Below, piece after piece: positions 1 to 28,761 of a stretch of 32,615 nt of DNA. Position 1 is the stretch's first letter. Each line of letters begins with the position of its first letter. The notes under the pieces were generated by a model. The model was not told where the DNA came from and made no database searches. It worked only from the letters and a program-made list of their open reading frames with translations. The DNA lies in contig VAWZ01000104.1 in assembly GCA_005888365.1 (NCBI GenBank), positions 1 to 32,615 of the forward strand. Reading direction: 5' to 3'. This DNA comes from Actinomycetota bacterium (GTDB lineage: Bacteria > Actinomycetota > Thermoleophilia > Gaiellales > Gaiellaceae). The position numbers and the translations under genes are program-made.

Positions 1-115
1 AATCTCCGTGCACGATCGGCTCGGCCTTCGGCCGTACGACTCCAGCGGCGGCAAACGGCACCGGCCAGGCGTCGATCTGGCGAAGTGCCTGCACGCGCGC
101 GATAGTAGTGGCGCC
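1..115. other. Intergenic or upstream flank, no gene recognised
   Basis: No convincing coding region was recognised. A short inverted repeat CGGCC-TTC-GGCCG lies at 22-34 and may be the end of an upstream terminator. The open frame that runs into the Rid-family gene from position 8 has no family similarity before residue 37, so it is treated as non-coding. Confidence 0.35.
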
Positions 116-496
116 ATGGAGCGCCGCTCGATCTCCGGACACTCGCCCTACGAGCCGATCATGGGCTACTGCCGTGCGGTCGTGGCAGGCGAGCACGTGT
201 ACGTCGCAGGCACGGCGCCGATCCCTGTGGACGGCTCCGCGCCGCCCGACGATGCCTATGAGCAGATGCGGCTCTGCCTCGAGATCGTCGGAGAGGCGCT
301 CGGGCGCGCCGGTGCAAGCTTCGAGGACGTCGTCCGTACCCGCGTCTTCGTAACGGATCCCGTCCATTTCGAGGGCGTTGCGCGAGCGCACGGCGAAGTT
401 TTCCGCGACGTGCGGCCGGTCAACACAACCGTGGTCACGTCGCTCATGGACCCAGCCTGGAAGGTCGAGATCGAAGTGGACGCGATGCTGCCGTGA
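116..496 (+). CDS. Rid (YjgF/YER057c/UK114) family protein
   Basis: This 126-residue protein has the normal length for the Rid fold, a small trimeric cytosolic family. Canonical RidA hydrolyses reactive enamine/imine intermediates released by PLP enzymes. The central DVVRTRVFVTD strand and the C-terminal KVEIEVDAM strand are typical. ATG 116 is chosen because the family similarity begins there; the frame is open further upstream but without similarity. In RidA the catalytic arginine follows a Pro-Ala; here the equivalent stretch reads RPVNTTVV, so that arginine appears to be Asn. That places the protein in a subfamily that may lack imine deaminase activity (inference from motif alignment by eye). 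Its stop overlaps the GTG start of the ligase gene by four bases, so the two are probably co-translated. Confidence 0.85.
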   Translation: MERRSISGHSPYEPIMGYCRAVVAGEHVYVAGTAPIPVDGSAPPDDAYEQMRLCLEIVGEALGRAGASFEDVVRTRVFVTDPVHFEGVARAHGEVFRDVRPVNTTVVTSLMDPAWKVEIEVDAMLP

Positions 497-1707
497 CGGA
501 GGAGAAGCAGGTCTTTCCGCCCTCGATCACGGGCAAAGGAGCCGCGCACTCCGGCAGCGTGCTCGACCACGCCTTCGGGACCGGCGACGCCTACACGCTC
601 GGTGTGGAGGAGGAGTATCAGCTTCTCGACGGCGAGACATTCGACCTCGTCCAGCACATCGACACCATGCTCGAGGCGGTCAGCGGGCACGAGCTCGAGG
701 CACGCATCAACGCCGAGCTCATGCAGTCGGTCATCGAGATCACGACTCCCGTCTGCCACTCCGCGGGCGACGTCCTCCGCTGGCTGACCACGCTTCGCGG
801 ATACGTCACCGAGATCGCGCAGAAGGAGGGACTACGGGTCGGATCGGCCGGCACGCACCCCTTTAGCCTCTTCGAGCGGCAGCGGATCACGGCGAAGGAT
901 CGATACAGGGCGCTCATCGACCAGATGCAGTACGTCGCCCGTCGCGAGCTGATCTTCGGCATGCACGTCCACGTCGCTGTCGACGATCCCGAGAAGGCGA
1001 TCCAGGTCGTGAACGGGCTCCTCCCCCAGCTGGCGCCGCTGCTCGCCCTCTCCGCGAGCTCGCCGTTCTGGCGCGGCGAGGCGACCGGGCTCGCATCGAG
1101 CCGGCAGATGGTCTTCTCGGCGTTCCCGCGCTCGGGCCCTCCCCCTCGCTTCCGCGACTACGCGGACTACGCGGAGGTGGTTGGACAGCTCGAGCGCTCG
1201 GGCTGCATCCCGGACTACACCCACATCTGGTGGGACATCCGTCTTCATCCCCGGCTCGGCACGATCGAGATCCGGATCTGCGACGGCGTCACGCGGGTCG
1301 AAGACGCGGTTGCCATCGCCGCCTACTGCCAGGCGCTCGTGAAGCAGCTCTGCGAGCGCTACGAGGCAAGCGAGGAGATCCCCTCGTACCACCGCATCCT
1401 GACGAGCGAGAACAAGTGGCTCGCCGCGCGCTACGGCCTCGAGGCCCCGGTGATGGACCTCGGATCGGGTAGACGGAACCGCGTTCCCATCGCTCGGCTC
1501 GTTCGCCGGACGGTCGCCGACGTCGAGCCGCACGCGCGCGAGCTCGGCTCCGAGCGGGAGCTCGAAGGGATCCTCGACATTCTCGCGCGCGGCTCGAGCG
1601 CCGACACGCAGCTTCGGATCTTCAACGCGAACCGGGACATCACCGAGGTCGCGCGCGGGATCGCAGACGCGACCGAGGCGTTGCCGGCCGCTGTCAGTTC
1701 CTTCTAG
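493..1707 (+). CDS. Carboxylate-amine ligase, GCS2 / YbdK family
   Basis: This 404-residue ATP-dependent ligase belongs to the glutamate-cysteine ligase 2 superfamily. Members join an amino acid to a carboxylate through an acyl phosphate; E. coli YbdK has weak gamma-glutamylcysteine synthetase activity, and the actual substrate here is unknown. The diagnostic N-terminal motif GVEEEYQLLD is at residues 37-46, HMHVHV is mid-protein and WWDIRLHPRLGTIEIRICD follows, all typical of the fold. GTG 493 overlaps the upstream stop. The roughly 35 residues before the first conserved motif make it slightly longer than the usual 370, so a later start is possible. The 3' end overlaps the convergent gene at 1704 by four bases, leaving no room for a terminator. 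Confidence 0.9.
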   Translation: MTEEKQVFPPSITGKGAAHSGSVLDHAFGTGDAYTLGVEEEYQLLDGETFDLVQHIDTMLEAVSGHELEARINAELMQSVIEITTPVCHSAGDVLRWLTTLRGYVTEIAQKEGLRVGSAGTHPFSLFERQRITAKDRYRALIDQMQYVARRELIFGMHVHVAVDDPEKAIQVVNGLLPQLAPLLALSASSPFWRGEATGLASSRQMVFSAFPRSGPPPRFRDYADYAEVVGQLERSGCIPDYTHIWWDIRLHPRLGTIEIRICDGVTRVEDAVAIAAYCQALVKQLCERYEASEEIPSYHRILTSENKWLAARYGLEAPVMDLGSGRRNRVPIARLVRRTVADVEPHARELGSERELEGILDILARGSSADTQLRIFNANRDITEVARGIADATEALPAAVSSF

Positions 1708-4143: not shown

Positions 4144-5252
4144 AGCGCGAGCTCGAGCGAGTCGAGATCCCGGACGAGCACGGCGCGCGGGAGCGAGCCT
4201 GGGCTGTCCTGTCCTCCGCGTTCGCCAAGCGCACTCCGGCCTCTCGTAGATCGCTCCACTGGAGACCGGCCCTCGCACTCGCAGTCGTACTCGCGCTCGT
4301 CGCGGCTGCCTTCAGCTCGCCTGGGAAGGGAGTCGTCGACCGCATCCGCAAGACGGTAGGGATCGAGCATGCGGCCCCCGCGCTCTTCTCGCTCCCTTCC
4401 CCGGGCAAGCTCCTCGTCCGCACCGACGCGGGTGTGTGGGTCGTGCAGCGGAACGGCTCACGGCGCTTCCTCGGCGGGTATCGCGAGGCGAGCTGGTCGC
4501 CCTTCGGGCGCTTCCTCGTCGCGGCGAGGACGAACGAGCTGGCCGCAATCGAGCCGAACGGAGACGTCCGCTGGACCCTCGCACGGCCGGGAGTGCGACT
4601 CCCGAGCTGGGGCGGGACGCGAACGGATACCCAGATCGCCTACCTCAGCGGGCGATCGCTGCGGGTGGTCGCAGGCGATGGCACCGGCGATCGCGTGGGC
4701 TGCGCGAGGCGTGTCGCGCGCGTCGCTCCGGCATGGCAGCCCGGCGCTCCGCGCGTACTCGCCGTCGCCGCTCACAGCGGGAGCGTTCGCGTCTACTCGG
4801 TCGATACGTGTCGGCTCCTCTGGCACTCGAAACCGGGGCCGGTTCCGACGAAGCTCGAGTGGTCGAGCGACGGCCACCGGCTCCTCGTGCTCGCGCCTCC
4901 CGGCCTCCGCGTCTACGACGCACGGGGTCGCCTCCTTGCCGAGGACCGTCCGCCCAACCCCGCGCGTGACGCGGATGCGACGTTCGTCGGTCCCGAGAAT
5001 TACGGCGTCGTCGGGATCCGCGTCCGCGGCGGCCAGAGCAACATCTTCGCTCCCCGCACGCTGTTTCACGCTAGAGGCTCGTTGCGGCAAGTCACGGCTT
5101 CGCCGGACGGTCGCTGGCTTCTCATCACCTGGCCAACGGCGAATCAGTGGATCTTCGTGCGCGCGGACGGAAAGCGCATCCGGGCGATCTCGAACGCGTC
5201 GTCGCAGTTCGAGTCGGGGACATTCCCCAAGGTCGAGGGCTGGGCGCGGTGA
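4140..5252 (+). CDS. Membrane-anchored beta-propeller, putative anti-sigma factor
   Basis: The 370-residue product has a cytosolic N-terminal stretch of about 40 residues, one hydrophobic segment (PALALAVVLALVAAAFSS, about residues 43-60) and a large extracytoplasmic domain. That domain has propeller-like strands such as EASWSPFGRFLVAARTNELA, KLEWSSDGHRLLVLAPPGLR and QVTASPDGRWLLITW. No zinc anti-sigma HxxxCxxC motif is present, so the anti-sigma role rests on context: GTG 4140 overlaps the ECF sigma stop, and topology is right for a sensor. The C-terminal stop overlaps the GTG of the carboxypeptidase gene, giving a three-gene coupled unit. Alternatively it is simply a sigma-regulated surface protein. 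Confidence 0.75.
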   Translation: MKRELERVEIPDEHGARERAWAVLSSAFAKRTPASRRSLHWRPALALAVVLALVAAAFSSPGKGVVDRIRKTVGIEHAAPALFSLPSPGKLLVRTDAGVWVVQRNGSRRFLGGYREASWSPFGRFLVAARTNELAAIEPNGDVRWTLARPGVRLPSWGGTRTDTQIAYLSGRSLRVVAGDGTGDRVGCARRVARVAPAWQPGAPRVLAVAAHSGSVRVYSVDTCRLLWHSKPGPVPTKLEWSSDGHRLLVLAPPGLRVYDARGRLLAEDRPPNPARDADATFVGPENYGVVGIRVRGGQSNIFAPRTLFHARGSLRQVTASPDGRWLLITWPTANQWIFVRADGKRIRAISNASSQFESGTFPKVEGWAR

Positions 5253-6352
5253 GGCTTGCCGCGTTCGGGGTGGCCGCCGCGCTGTCGCTCGCCGTCGCAC
5301 CAGCGCAAGGCAGCACCCGAGCCATCCGCTTCGAGAACCGAGTCGATGGCTACACCATCGCGCTCCCCTCTGGTTGGCACGCTGCCGTGATCCCGGACGA
5401 CGGCTCGGCGACGATCGCCAGCTACCGACCGCGGTCCGTCTACCACATCGCAGTCACACCGCCTCGTGAGCAGACCTGGATCCGCCTCTACGACGAAGGT
5501 CCGCTCTGGAGTCGCAGACACTTCATGAGGCGCCGCCCGCCTCGTTTGCCAGCAGCAGTTCCTCCCGTGAAGCCCTTCGAAGGCTTCGGGTCGGCCCGGC
5601 GCCTCGAGTTCCGTCTCGACGGCCACGCGTTCCTCGCGTTCGTGAAAGGGAAGCCGCGAGGCGACGTCTTGTCGATGCTGGCGAGCATTCGGCTGACCGC
5701 GCGAGGACGGGCACTCGCGCTCGTCCAATCCGTGCGCGTCATCGGTCGCTCGGTCGAAGGTCGCCCGATCCGCATGTGGCGCATCGGAAACCCGCACAGC
5801 TCGACGCGTGTGCTCGTCGTCGGCTGCATCCACGGCAACGAGTGCGCGGGGATGGCGATCACGCAGCAGCTGGCGAACCTCGGCCTGCCGATCACGTTCG
5901 ACCTCTGGGTCGTCCAGGACCTGAACCCGGACGGACTCGCAGCCGGAACGCGCCAGAACGCGCACGGCGTGGATCTGAACCGTAACTTCGGCGCGATGTG
6001 GAAGCGAATCGGGCGCCACGGAACCTTCGCGTACTCGGGGCCGAGGCCGTGGTCCGAGCGCGAGACGCGAATCGCTCGCTCACTCGTCCTCCGCATCCAC
6101 CCGCAGGTGACGATCTGGTTCCACCAGCCGCAGGCGATCGTTCGCGCTTGGGGCCGGAGCATCCCGACCGCCCGCCGCTACGCCCGTCTCGCGCACGTTC
6201 CGTTCCGGGCAATTCCCTGGCCGAACGGGACGGCCGCCAACTGGCAGAACCATCTCGGCGAGGTCTCGTTCGTGGTCGAGCTTCCGGCCGGCCGCCTCTC
6301 GCTCGCGGGGGCGCGCCGCTACGAGAGCGCCATTCTCGGCCTGCCGCGGTAG
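5249..6352 (+). CDS. Secreted M14-family zinc carboxypeptidase
   Basis: This 367-residue protein has a signal peptide (VRLAAFGVAAALSLAVAPAQG), a roughly 150-residue N-terminal domain with strands such as YTIALPSGWHAAVIPDDGS, and an M14 peptidase domain. All zinc and catalytic residues are visible: HGNECAG gives His195 and Glu198, NPDGL and GVDLNRNF (Arg245) bind substrate, WFHQPQ gives His292, and VVELPAG supplies the general base Glu344. The relatives it most resembles are MpaA-type amidases that trim murein peptides, so cell-wall peptide cleavage is likely but unproven. GTG 5249 is chosen because the signal peptide starts there and it overlaps the upstream stop. The longer open frame to 5147 overlaps the upstream gene and lacks signal-peptide features. 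Confidence 0.9.
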   Translation: MRLAAFGVAAALSLAVAPAQGSTRAIRFENRVDGYTIALPSGWHAAVIPDDGSATIASYRPRSVYHIAVTPPREQTWIRLYDEGPLWSRRHFMRRRPPRLPAAVPPVKPFEGFGSARRLEFRLDGHAFLAFVKGKPRGDVLSMLASIRLTARGRALALVQSVRVIGRSVEGRPIRMWRIGNPHSSTRVLVVGCIHGNECAGMAITQQLANLGLPITFDLWVVQDLNPDGLAAGTRQNAHGVDLNRNFGAMWKRIGRHGTFAYSGPRPWSERETRIARSLVLRIHPQVTIWFHQPQAIVRAWGRSIPTARRYARLAHVPFRAIPWPNGTAANWQNHLGEVSFVVELPAGRLSLAGARRYESAILGLPR

Positions 6353-6358
6353 TAGCGT
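6353..6358 (+). promoter_or_regulatory. Putative -10 box for the Sec-peroxiredoxin gene
   Basis: TAGCGT (TANNNT) starts directly after the carboxypeptidase stop and lies 6 nt before GTG 6365, which has no Shine-Dalgarno sequence. This is the spacing of a leaderless actinobacterial start. Confidence 0.4.
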
Positions 6359-6364
6359 GCGGGC

Positions 6365-6841
6365 GTGCTCGGCTCCGGGAACGACGTGCCCGACGTTCGT
6401 GTCTGGGTGACACCCGGCGAAGGGCCACGATCGCTTCGCGAGATCCTGGACGAGGGTCTTGCGCTCCTCTGTTTCTACCTCTGGGACTGGTCCCCGACCT
6501 GAACGAACGAGGTGCTGCTCCTGCGGGACAGGAGCGAGGACCTGGCTGCGGCAGGCGTAAGGCCCTTCGCCATCTCGCGCGACTCCGTCTGGTCGCACGC
6601 CGCCTGGGCGCAGACGCTCGGCGTCGACGTTCCGCTTCTGTCCGATTGGAACGGAGAGGCGACCCGGGCCTTCGGCGTGGCCGCCGAGCTCCTCGAGATG
6701 AGAGACGTCGCATCCCGCACGGCGTTTCTCATCGAGGACGCTAAGACGATCAGACACACCTGGAGGCTCGGCCGTGAGCTCCCCGACATCGCTAACGTGA
6801 TCGAAGCCGCGAGCGCTGCGGCCGCGCGAAGGCCCGACTAG
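6365..6841 (+). CDS. Peroxiredoxin-like selenoprotein with in-frame UGA as Sec46
   Basis: This is a 158-residue redoxin-fold protein if TGA 6500-6502 is read as selenocysteine. Residues before it (LALLCFYLWDWSPT) and after it (TNEVLLLRDRSEDLAAAGV) match the peroxiredoxin pattern FYPxDFTPxC-TxE-ALRD, so the UGA falls exactly on the peroxidatic cysteine. The S-x-x-U motif replaces the family T/S-x-x-C, and an Arg in ASRTAFLIED fits the conserved active-site arginine. FAISRDS, QTLGVDVPLLSDWNGEATRAFGV and the C-terminus are typical of AhpE/BCP-like members. Such enzymes reduce peroxides with a thiol partner. There is no other cysteine after Sec, and Cys36 is the only one before it, so it looks like a 1-Cys (1-Sec) type. 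GTG 6365 is chosen from family length and a -10 box. A hairpin fitting bSECIS follows the UGA. The alternative, a pseudogene with one nonsense mutation, is less likely because the rest is intact. Confidence 0.87.
6517..6535 (+). promoter_or_regulatory. Bacterial SECIS hairpin of the peroxiredoxin gene
   Basis: GCTCCTG (6517-6523), loop CGGGA (6524-6528) and CAGGAGC (6529-6535) form a perfect 7-bp stem with a 5-nt loop. The loop starts 21 nt after the UGA and has G at its second position. This satisfies the bSECIS pattern of a small apical loop with G in the first two positions, 16-37 nt from the UGA. It would recruit SelB with Sec-tRNA. Confidence 0.8.
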
Positions 6842-22059: not shown

Positions 22060-22074
22060 CGGTGTCTGACACCG
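22060..22074. repeat. Right palindromic end of the RAYT element
   Basis: CGGTGTC-T-GACACCG, an exact reverse complement of the left end and itself a 7-bp palindrome around a central T. It ends 23 bases before the fdhA start codon. Confidence 0.85.
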
Positions 22075-22084
22075 AGGTGAGCGG

Positions 22085-22090
22085 TACAGT
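22085..22090 (+). promoter_or_regulatory. Putative -10 box for fdhA
   Basis: TACAGT (TANNNT) lies just outside the RAYT right end and 7 nt before ATG 22098. It supports ATG 22098 over the in-frame GTG 22062 inside the hairpin, and suggests that fdhA kept its own promoter after the insertion. Confidence 0.45.
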
Positions 22091-22097
22091 GACCGGG

Positions 22098-24818
22098 ATG
22101 GTCGAGTTCACGCTCGACGGCCGGGCGGTGACCGCTTCCGAGGGTGAGCTGCTCGTGCACGCGGCCGCCCGGCACGGCACCTTCATCCCGACGCTCTGTC
22201 ACGACGACAAGCTGGACCCCTACGGCGGCTGCCGCATGTGCGTCGTCGAGGTGGAGGGCGCGCCGCGCCCTCTTCCCGCATGTGCGACCCGAGTGACCGA
22301 AGGGATGGTCGTCTCGACGAACGGGCCGATGACCGACTTCCGCAAGACCTTGACCGAGATGCTCCTCTCCGAGCATCTCAACGCCTCCCCCGGGGGACGC
22401 CCGAACGAGCTGCTCGACCTCGCGAACGAGCTCGGCGCCGAGGCGCCCGTTGTCCTGCCGGACGCGAAGCGGAAGGAGTACGACGACCGCAACCAGCTCA
22501 TGGGCTACGACCCGGACGCGTGCATCCTCTGCAACCGCTGCGTTCGCTACACGCAGGAGGTCATGCAGTGCTCGGCGCTCTCGCTCGAGGGCCGAGGCGG
22601 GCATGCGCGGATCGTTCCCACCTGGGAGCTCTCCTGGCTCGACACCGAGTGCGAGCTCTGCGGTGGCTGCCTCTCCGTCTGCCCGACCGGTGCGATCTAC
22701 GAGAAGTTCGAGGAAGGAACGACTCGGCCCGAGCGCTCGCTCGAGCAGGTGAGGACGACGTGCACGTTCTGCGGCGTCGGTTGCCAGATCGACCTGAATC
22801 TCGACCCGCAGACGAAGCACATCGTCAAGGTCACATCGAAGCCGGAGTACCTCCCGAACGAAGGGAACCTCTGCGTCAAGGGGCGCTTCGCCTTCAACTT
22901 CGTGCACCATCCGGACCGCCTCACGCAGCCTCTCGTCCGCGGCGAGGACGGAGACCTCCACCCGACGACCTGGGAGCACGCGCTCGAGACGGCTGCGACC
23001 GGCCTCCAGAAGGTCATCGCCGAGCACGGGCCGCAGGCGGTCGGCTTCCTCTCATCCGCCCGCCTGACGAACGAGGAGAACTACCTGACCCAGAAGCTCG
23101 CCCGGGCAGTGGTCGGAACGAACTCCGTCCACTCCTGCGAGTCGACCTGACACGGTCCGACTCTTTACGGCCTGGTCAGGTCGTTGGGCAGAGGAGCAAG
23201 CACCAACTCGATCCCGGAGATCGAGAACGCGCGTTTCCTGTTCGTCATCGGCTCGAACACGACCGAGGCACATCCGGTGCTCGCGCTCCGGATCAAGAAA
23301 GCAGTCCGAAACGGCGCCACCCTCGTGGTCGCCGATCCCCGCCGGATCTGGCTGACGAAGATCGCGAAGCGCCACCTGCAACTGCGCCCAGGGACTGACG
23401 TGTGGCTGCTGAACGCGATGATGCACACGATCCTCGCCGAGGGCCTCCAAGACGAGGACTACATCCGTGAGCTCACCGAGGACTTCGACGCCGTGCGCGA
23501 GATCGTCGTGCGCTACTCGCCGGAGGATGCCGAGAAGGTCACGGGCGTCCCCGCAGACGCGATTCGAGCAACCGCGCGCGAATACGCGACGGAGCGCCAC
23601 GCGGCGGTCTTCTACACGCTCGGGATCACCGAGCACGCATGCGGAGTCGACAACATCTGGTCGCTCTCGAACCTCGTCCTCATGACCGGCCATCTCGGGT
23701 ACGAGTCGACGGGCCTGAACGCCCTGCGGGGCCAGAACAACGTCCAGGGACTGAACGACTCCGGCGCCAACCCGATGTACTTCCCGGGCTACCAGCCCAT
23801 CGAGGATCTCGAAATCCGGCGCAAGTTCTCGGAGGCCTGGGGCGGCGCGGAGCTGCCGGAGACGACGGGATATCGGCTCGATCAGATGATGAGCGGCCTC
23901 CACGACGGCCGGATTCGCGCGCTCTACCTGATCGGTGAGAACCCTGCGCAGACCGAGCCGAACGCCCACCGCGTCGAAGAAGGGCTCGGGAAGCTCGAGA
24001 TGCTGATCTCACAGGACATCTTCCTGCACGACATGACCCGCAAGCACGCGGACGTCGTCTTCCCCGCGTCGTCCTTCGCCGAGAAGGACGGCACGTTCAC
24101 CAACACCGAGCGCCGCATCAGCCGCGTGCGCGAGGCGGCTCCGCTCCCCGGAGAGGCCAAGGGCGATCGGGAGATCGTCCTGCTCATGGCGAAAGCGCTA
24201 GGCGCGAGCTGGCCTGAGTATCCGGACGCCGAATCCGTCTGGAACGAGCTCGCCGATCTCGCGCCGAACTGGTACGGCGTCCGCTACGACCGGCTCGAGG
24301 AGAACGGGATCCAGTGGCCGGTGACCGAGATCGGCGGCGAGCCCACCAGGTTCCTCCACGCTCCGCGCCCCGCGCGCGCTGGAGGGCGCGCCAAGTTCTT
24401 CCCCGTCGAGTACCAGCGCCCGATCGAGGAGCCGGACTCCGAATACCCGCTCGTCCTCTCCACCGGCCGGACGCTCTACCACTACAACTCCGCGACGATG
24501 ACGATGCGCGAGTCCGGAATCACCGACAAGCAGGAGGATCCCTTCTTCGAGATCTCAGCCGAGGATGCCTCGGCGCTCGGGCTCGGCGAAGGTGAATTGG
24601 CGCAGCTCGTGTCGCGGCGCGGAGTACTCGAGGCGCGCGCCCACATCACGGAGCGCGTCTACCCGGGCCTCGTCTGGATGGCCCTGCACTTCGCCGAGCA
24701 GAAGGTGAACTGGCTCACGCACGACGTGGGCGACTCCCTGATCGGAACGCCCGAGTTCAAGGTCAGCGCGGTGCGAGTCGAGCCCGTGGGCACCGGCGTG
24801 CGGCCCGCCGCGCGGTGA
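22098..24818 (+). CDS. fdhA: Formate dehydrogenase catalytic subunit, selenocysteine-containing (Sec351)
   Basis: This is a 906-residue molybdenum/tungsten bis-MGD enzyme, if TGA 23148-23150 is read as Sec351. The context C-E-S-T-U-H-G-P-T matches the family motif with Sec before a conserved His. The N-terminus is NuoG-like: [2Fe-2S] Cys34, Cys45, Cys48, Cys62; a 2[4Fe-4S] ferredoxin domain with Cys142/145/148 and Cys185/188/191/195; then the [4Fe-4S] of the molybdopterin domain at Cys222, Cys225, Cys229 and Cys259. After Sec come the two molybdopterin domains and the C-terminal binding domain (EYPLVLSTGRTLYHYNSATMT). It oxidises formate to CO2, feeding NAD+ through FdhB. The NuoG-type His-Cys3 cluster ligands, expected around residues 93-110, are missing: His is there but no Cys. 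Its stop overlaps birA. Confidence 0.93.
23167..23184 (+). promoter_or_regulatory. Bacterial SECIS hairpin of fdhA
   Basis: ACGGCCT (23167-23173), loop GGTC (23174-23177) and AGGTCGT (23178-23184) form a 7-bp stem with one G-U pair. The loop starts 23 nt after the UGA and begins with GG. It fits the bSECIS pattern and resembles the spacing of the peroxiredoxin hairpin. Confidence 0.78.
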
Positions 24819-27431: not shown

Positions 27432-27985
27432 CGCGCCGGAGAGTATCCGGGCCGCGCGTCGACGACGGTCTCGGAGATTCGCGCCAAGTCCTCGGGAGCG
27501 TTGACGTTCGTGAGAAGCGACTGGTCGAGCTCCAGCACGCACGAGTTCAACCCTCTCAACGAGCGCTCGCCCGCAGCGAGCCGGCGCTCGAGCTCGGCGA
27601 TCATCCAGCGCTCGTACGCACCGGGCAGAGGGCCGGTCTGCGGGACCGCACGCGCGTCCGCGAGGGCTCGAAGCGCATCGGCGGTCAGGAGAGGACAGTC
27701 CACGGGCAGCGCGACGCAAACGTCGTGGGATGCCGCCCGCAGGCCGGCGAGCACACCGTAGGCGGGAGCATGTTCCGGCGTCCCGTCGTCGAGGATCGGG
27801 AACGGAAGCTGTAAGCCGTGGGAGCCCTTCCCGACGGCAATGCGCTCGTCGCAGACAGCGCCGAGCAGGCGCCAGGCCCGCTCGGCCAAAGTCTCGTCCC
27901 CGAGGCGCGCCAGCGCCTTCGGCGAGCCGAAGCGGCGCGACTCCCCTCCGACGAGCAGGATGCCGGTCAGCCCGTGATCCGACAC
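27428..27985 (-). CDS. mobA: Molybdenum cofactor guanylyltransferase
   Basis: This 185-residue enzyme joins GMP to molybdopterin to form the MGD cofactor needed by the formate dehydrogenase in this window. The nucleotidyltransferase motif ILLVGGESRRFGSPKAL is at residues 9-25, the metal-binding VALPVDCPLL is mid-protein, and TNVNAPEDL is near the C-terminus, all typical of MobA. GTG 27985 overlaps the fdhD 3' end by 19 bases; the upstream context has no clear ribosome site, so coupling to fdhD translation is likely. The loop reads VGGESRR rather than the common AGGxSxRM. Confidence 0.9.
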   Translation of the reverse strand: MSDHGLTGILLVGGESRRFGSPKALARLGDETLAERAWRLLGAVCDERIAVGKGSHGLQLPFPILDDGTPEHAPAYGVLAGLRAASHDVCVALPVDCPLLTADALRALADARAVPQTGPLPGAYERWMIAELERRLAAGERSLRGLNSCVLELDQSLLTNVNAPEDLARISETVVDARPGYSPAR

Positions 27986-28761
27986 GGCTCCGTGTACACG
28001 GTGAGCCGGCCCTCACGGACGAAGCCGCAGAGCGTTAGGCCGCGGTCGTCCGCCACCTCGATCGCGAGCGAGGACGGTGCCCCGACGGCGACGAGAACCG
28101 GACAACCCGCGACGGCCGCCTTCTGCACCAGCTCGAACGAGAGCCGCCCGCTGACGCAGAGCACGTGCTCCGAGAGCGGGACGAGCCCTGCAAGGAACGC
28201 CCAACCGACGACCTTGTCCATTGCGTTGTGGCGACCGACGTCCTCGCGCACGCACGCGAGCTCCCCGCTCGCGGTGAAGAGCCCCGTCGCGTGCAGGCCG
28301 CCAGTCGCGGCGAACGCTCGCTGCGCCGACAGCAGGCGATCGGGGAGCGCGGCGGCGAGCGCTTGGCTCAGCCGGAGCGCGCTCTCGACTCGCTGGGAGG
28401 CGACGCGTACCGCCTCGATCGCACCCTTCCCGCAGACACCGCAGGAGGACGACGTGTAGAAGTGCCGGCGGAGCCGCTCGGGATCGAACCCGGAAGCCTC
28501 GACGTCGATCGCGTTGACCGCGAGATCGTCGGGCACCCGCGCCGCGACAGGCGCAAGCCCTTCGGTAAGACAAAAGCCGAGCGCGAGCTCCTCGTCGTGG
28601 CCCGGCGTCCGCATCGTGACCGCGACGGGCTCGCCGCCGATGCGGATCTCGAGCGGCTCCTCGACGGCGACGAGATCGTCCTCCTCGTGACCCGTCGGGA
28701 ATCTCCGCGCGCGCACCTCGACCGTGCTGTACGCGGGTGCCTTGGCCGAGCTCTTGCTCAC
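27967..28761 (-). CDS. fdhD: Formate dehydrogenase accessory sulfurtransferase
   Basis: This 264-residue protein transfers sulfur from a cysteine desulfurase to the molybdenum centre of FDH, which is required for its activity. The redox pair is in SSSCGVCGKG (Cys107, Cys110); EEPLEIRI, TPGHDEELALGFCLTEGL, REDVGRHNAMDKVVGW and VSGRLSFELVQKAAVAG are the conserved family motifs. It stands in an operon with mobA and about 3 kb from birA-fdhA, on the opposite strand. GTG 28761 has a TANNNT box 7 nt upstream and no ribosome site. Confidence 0.94.
   Translation of the reverse strand: MSKSSAKAPAYSTVEVRARRFPTGHEEDDLVAVEEPLEIRIGGEPVAVTMRTPGHDEELALGFCLTEGLAPVAARVPDDLAVNAIDVEASGFDPERLRRHFYTSSSCGVCGKGAIEAVRVASQRVESALRLSQALAAALPDRLLSAQRAFAATGGLHATGLFTASGELACVREDVGRHNAMDKVVGWAFLAGLVPLSEHVLCVSGRLSFELVQKAAVAGCPVLVAVGAPSSLAIEVADDRGLTLCGFVREGRLTVYTEPCRITG

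Follow-up and report, generated by a model that had tools for sequence, protein, structure and literature searches.

The 32,615-nt stretch of DNA analysed here (the window) is one contig of a 2.66-Mb draft genome, estimated to be 92% complete, from the actinobacterial class Thermoleophilia. It contains a peroxiredoxin gene interrupted by an in-frame TGA, with a predicted hairpin directly downstream of that codon:

6365..6841, + strand: predicted selenocysteine (Sec)-containing 1-Sec peroxiredoxin; 158 aa, GTG start, TAG stop at 6839-6841; AhpC-TSA match, kin in 72 loci
6500..6502, + strand: UGA, predicted Sec codon, residue 46, peroxidatic position; 72 distinct homologous loci have TGA here and six in-group relatives TGC/TGT
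6517..6535, + strand: predicted bSECIS hairpin; stem 6517-6523/6529-6535, loop CGGGA at 6524-6528; conserved pairs, folding z-score of -3.65, rare codons

The peroxiredoxin frame continues through a TGA codon

As originally predicted, one frame runs on either side of the TGA: 6365-6838 is open but for 6500-6502. The alignment to the peroxiredoxin family across the UGA, proposed with that prediction, gives 75.9 bits for the read-through product against the AhpC-TSA profile (PF00578; cut-off 26), and the match spans residues 7-131, covering both flanks of the TGA. The codon aligns with the Cys of homologues, which places the UGA at the peroxidatic position, where it had been put. Two observations back the GTG start: in relatives the gene overlaps its upstream neighbour by 4 nt, and a conserved TANNNT element is located 6-7 nt upstream. 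Mechanical ORF calling leaves a 109-aa frame 3' of the TGA (6512-6841), the very remnant that had been anticipated, and gene callers of the standard type probably cut or miss the peroxiredoxin.

We searched 399 genomes of the class Thermoleophilia for homologues and recovered many one-TGA matches in two families (f1 and f3). Counting the window's own gene, the peroxidatic codon is TGA at 72 distinct loci, and it is TGC or TGT at six in-group loci, the Cys homologues in relatives that were to be looked for. Frameshifts or multiple stops in homologues had been named as evidence against a selenoprotein; the alignments contain none, and the position is either TGA or Cys. Since 72 distinct homologous loci share the codon, a chance origin of the in-frame TGA is ruled out. 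Second in-frame TGAs in three loci (L018, L019 and L063) were dropped, as they proved to be terminal stops.

A conserved hairpin follows the UGA

The hairpin GCTCCTG-CGGGA-CAGGAGC at 6517-6535 has the perfect 7-bp stem and 5-nt loop first described, with the loop beginning 21 nt past the UGA. It agrees with the published bSECIS model, in which the loop lies 16-37 nt after the UGA, is 3-9 nt long and has G in its first two positions (PMC13188914). When compared with 200 shuffles, the 48 nt 3' of the TGA fold with a z-score of -3.65, and none of the shuffled sequences is equally stable. TGA forms retain the hairpin as CTCCTG-CGTGA-CAGGAG, and across the 72 TGA sequences 94.2% of the 7-bp pair cells are kept, as compared to at most 57.5% for slid controls.

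Covariation is weak because the stem sits in a conserved LLRDR stretch of the protein: the sole compensatory pair of the 7-bp structure is the outermost one (G-C to C-G in five sequences, 5 cells), and RNAalifold, applied to the 72 sequences, retained only the five inner pairs and detected no double changes. The RNA argument is, therefore, carried by codon bias and by the contrast with the Cys forms. The Arg codon of the 3' arm is AGG in 71 of the 72 TGA forms and that of the loop is CGT in 69, whereas elsewhere in these genes the two account for 30 and 32 of 722 Arg codons, respectively (about 4% each). Among eight Cys forms AGG is used once, and CGT never, at the hairpin Arg codons. The in-group Cys forms keep the LLRDR motif (followed in one by a different residue) with 2-4 of the 7 pairs left; one of them, L023, retains AGG, as expected of a relic. 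As judged by these comparisons, codon choice is the strongest evidence for the predicted hairpin, and the hairpin decays following Sec loss.

The genome encodes the selenocysteine machinery and a second predicted selenoprotein

A genome lacking selA, selB, selC and selD was to have counted against the prediction. All four genes are found, the three protein genes scoring above curated cut-offs: selA (518.7 bits, cut-off 267.9) and the adjoining selB (319.6 bits, cut-off 242.25) by profile match on contig C75, selD (347.4 bits, cut-off 125) on contig C160, and a tRNA-Sec (selC) with the anticodon UCA. Among the genomes compared, selA is present in 34 of 40 with a TGA-form peroxiredoxin versus 17 of 32 without (p = 0.004). 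The remaining six TGA-form genomes are drafts, 81-91% complete, and the missing selA probably reflects assembly gaps. Below about 55 bits the Rfam tRNA-Sec model also matches other long-arm tRNAs in these genomes, and it was not used for calling Sec loss. In the genus g12, selA is above cut-off in none of six genomes and the peroxiredoxin is absent too; similarly, the one-contig genome G009 lacks the peroxiredoxin, with selA below cut-off. This suggests that the Sec trait was lost wholesale in these lineages.

The window holds a further interrupted gene:

22062..24818, + strand: alpha subunit of formate dehydrogenase, interrupted in frame by a TGA at the Sec position (23148-23150); TIGR01591 750.7 bits (cut-off 666.25) with the TGA read through

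A SECIS-like hairpin with the loop GGUC lies 23 nt past this UGA, its z-score alone being only -1.33. On sequence grounds this is the second selenoprotein gene in the window, and it serves as an internal positive control. Gene calling would break it in two at 23150/23184. An fdhD gene is located at 27967-28761.

Sec and Cys forms within Thermoleophilia

Outside f1 and f3, the extracted matches are Cys peroxiredoxins of 29-40% identity. No further Sec forms were detected in a 396-genome sample of the phylum, and a plasmid collection yielded homologues only below 60% identity; within the samples searched, the Sec peroxiredoxin is confined to one order of Thermoleophilia. A tree of 82 rows requires at least 4 U/C state changes, versus 14.0 in shuffles, and one clade unites the Sec forms with three separate Cys branches (L022 and L023; L078; L067 and L072). 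The simplest reading that fits is one Sec origin followed by about three Sec-to-Cys losses; the tree is rooted at midpoint, and the direction of change is read from this root with help from the relic AGG. The dN/dS ratio is 0.1-0.5 both upstream and downstream of the TGA, indicating purifying selection on both sides.

One genome with a Sec copy also carries a Cys copy of the peroxiredoxin (L107, G215:C105), the open frame of which runs 267 aa past the Cys and may encode a fusion protein. Separately, we observed a second, rarer Sec-type peroxiredoxin-like family with the site FTGSPEGG-U, represented in the 399 genomes by two TGA forms (L108:1989-2486 on G174:C211; L109 on G168:C99:18340-18837) and two Cys forms (G096 and G209). 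L108 has the hairpin TGTCCCA-GTT-TGGGACA past its UGA.

Predicted fold and active site

An AlphaFold2 model built with 60 aligned sequences has a mean pLDDT of 95.8 and a pTM of 0.90. The solved structures closest to it are all peroxiredoxins, namely Burkholderia Ahp (5enu), Bcp4, BcpB, PrxQ and AhpE, and the best PDB sequence matches are Mycobacterium tuberculosis BcpB (5epf, E 1.7e-12) and an Aeropyrum thiol peroxidase (2cx3, E 9.1e-12). The active-site set of Thr/Ser, Cys/Sec and Arg is complete (S43, U46 and R118): position 43 is kept as Ser or Thr in the family, and Arg118 is invariant in the 60 sequences. Glu49 is kept in 65 of 67 Sec forms. The Pro position of the motif (L39 here) is occupied by Leu in 64 of the 67, by Pro in two and by Ile in one; the Leu could lower reactivity.

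The absence of a resolving Cys after the Sec holds as first described, with zero Cys downstream of the Sec in the product. In the family no second Cys is conserved, there is no second Cys or Sec beside the Sec, and 51 of the 67 Sec forms are devoid of Cys altogether. Resolution would, therefore, be intermolecular, with an outside thiol as the reductant.

A glutamate-cysteine ligase family gene is a frequent neighbour

To survey the neighbourhood of 80 loci, genes of the window were used as tblastn queries. Upstream of the peroxiredoxin, the following features are relevant:

8..496, + strand: RidA-family protein; PF01042 84.8 bits; upstream partner of the ligase gene in 28/80 loci
493..1707, + strand: GCS2/YbdK-family carboxylate-amine (glutamate-cysteine) ligase; PF04107 197 bits, NF010039 406.9 bits (cut-off 371)
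5147..6352, + strand: M14 carboxypeptidase-like gene; PF00246 63.3 bits; ends 12 nt before the peroxiredoxin, nearby upstream in 11/80 loci including the window
6353..6358, + strand: predicted -10 element, TAGCGT, located 6 nt upstream of the GTG; the transcript would be leaderless

In the window the ligase gene lies 4.6 kb upstream of the peroxiredoxin, separated by two minus-strand ORFs and by genes for a sigma factor, a WD40-like protein and the M14 protein. Of the 80 loci, 33 have a GCS2/YbdK ligase gene upstream and in the same orientation; in 26 of these it ends -4 to 45 nt from the peroxiredoxin start, and in seven loci the two genes overlap by 4 nt (GTGA). Because several Cys forms also keep this neighbour, the link belongs to the enzyme and not to selenium. 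The adjacency suggests a low-molecular-weight thiol donor for the peroxiredoxin. That the two form a translationally coupled module, with the ligase's gamma-glutamyl thiol as the dedicated reductant, i.e. an analogue of glutathione/glutathione peroxidase arisen separately in Thermoleophilia, is a doubtful extension. The order RidA, ligase, peroxiredoxin is conserved (in L018, L022, L024 and others; 8-1707 in the window), and the sigma factor/WD40-like/M14 block is an optional insertion in it. The window ligase is over cut-off for the NF010039 carboxylate-amine ligase and is not EgtA.

A TANNNT element 4-9 nt before the start is present at 56 of 72 loci versus 10 of 4053 control places, pointing to a putative promoter of leaderless mRNAs. 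Its usual sequence is TAGGCT, 6-7 nt ahead of the start codon, and the stop of the upstream gene often lies within it.

Proposed mechanism and alternatives

The original reading as a Sec-dependent peroxiredoxin is well supported, with sel genes, hairpin and TGA-or-Cys homologues all present: the gene at 6365-6841 passes all available sequence tests and almost certainly encodes a selenoprotein. The explanation we hold with high confidence is a 1-Sec peroxiredoxin with the UGA read as Sec and an external reductant. Ribosomes supplied with SelB and Sec-tRNA(UCA) would read the UGA at 6500-6502 as Sec, cued by the hairpin 21 nt downstream; Ser43, Glu49 and Arg118 of the peroxiredoxin fold would position the selenolate, which would attack the peroxide; and the resulting selenenic acid would be reduced via a selenosulfide by an outside thiol, such as thioredoxin or a low-molecular-weight thiol. 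To the frame, its conservation, the Sec machinery, the hairpin and the predicted fold, all observed here, knowledge of the family lets us infer Sec insertion in vivo, peroxidase activity and the external reductant.

The main role of the selenoprotein might be other than that of a peroxidase, namely in redox relay, sensing or thiol-disulfide chemistry. The loss of the PxxxT Pro in 65 of 67 Sec forms and the frequent proximity of genes for an ECF-type sigma factor and a WD40-like protein would suit such a role; it is, however, unlikely given that S/T43, E49 and R118 are retained and that the protein has no CxxU/UxxC pair of the thiol-disulfide oxidoreductase type.

A narrower form of the 1-Sec peroxidase explanation takes the enzyme as the selenium counterpart of the AhpE system. 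M. tuberculosis AhpE is reduced by Mrx1/mycothiol (PMC4360819), and the 1-Sec architecture and AhpE-like fold are reminiscent of that enzyme. In the 92% complete genome, however, the mycothiol ligase MshC is not over cut-off and the mycoredoxin model reaches 23.9 bits against a cut-off of 89.5, and we consider reduction by mycothiol/mycoredoxin improbable. An apparent MshC match (242 bits, with a TGA inside) turned out to be an ordinary CysRS, the TGA lying just upstream of its start.

The UGA could also be read as Cys or another residue, through Cys on tRNA-Sec or another UGA-reading tRNA, making the active protein a Cys peroxiredoxin. While Cys homologues exist and the fold family is kept, this is very improbable: selA and selD are over cut-off, the hairpin is retained only in TGA forms, and TGA is an ordinary stop in the close homologues L018 and L019, so UGA is not generally sense. 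Finally, while TGA is formally a stop and the ORF at 6512-6841 exists, a pseudogene, sequencing error or true stop, leaving the part after 6512 or no product, has next to no probability, and for the family the conserved TGA and hairpin have refuted it already: the same TGA recurs in 72 loci from independent assemblies, selection acts on both of its sides, the rare codons are specific to the stem, and the post-TGA product would be without an active site.

Relation to known peroxiredoxins

Experiments have established Sec peroxiredoxins (TxxU, PF00578) as a family of bacterial selenoproteins, which bears out the earlier statement that Sec occupies the peroxidatic position of some bacterial peroxiredoxins (PMC13188914, PMC9312934). 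The Thermoleophilia protein shares with them Sec at the peroxidatic AhpC-TSA position, a TxxU-type site (SxxU here) and a bSECIS directly after the UGA. PrxU of Eubacterium acidaminophilum was the first bacterial Sec peroxiredoxin, with the motif PxxxTxxU. The present sequence departs from this full motif (LxxxSxxU, with Pro in 2/67 Sec forms), reaches 38.1 bits with the PrxU model NF040737 (cut-off 270), and is a shorter, 1-Sec protein. AhpE and other 1-Cys actinobacterial peroxiredoxins are alike in size, fold (TM about 0.82, 27% identity), conserved Arg and lack of a resolving Cys, but have Cys in place of Sec and PxxxT in place of LxxxS, and mycothiol/mycoredoxin genes are not over cut-off here. 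Bcp/PrxQ proteins (5epf, 2cx3) give the top PDB sequence matches, their Cys aligning with the Sec. Many PrxQ proteins have another Cys close to the active site, which is absent here.

By Sec position and fold the predicted enzyme is of the same kind as known Sec peroxiredoxins, within which it is a distinct subfamily; this branch is over cut-off for no named NCBI protein-family model. We found no papers on Thermoleophilia selenoproteins in a literature search of incomplete coverage, which is weak evidence of novelty.

The finding adds a conserved selenoprotein subfamily, the genes of which are truncated by standard ORF calling, from at least 72 species-level genomes of a hardly cultured actinobacterial lineage. 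It provides a well-sampled natural Sec/Cys series of a single enzyme, in which the SECIS decays once Sec is lost, and the ligase neighbour offers a lead toward the thiol partner.
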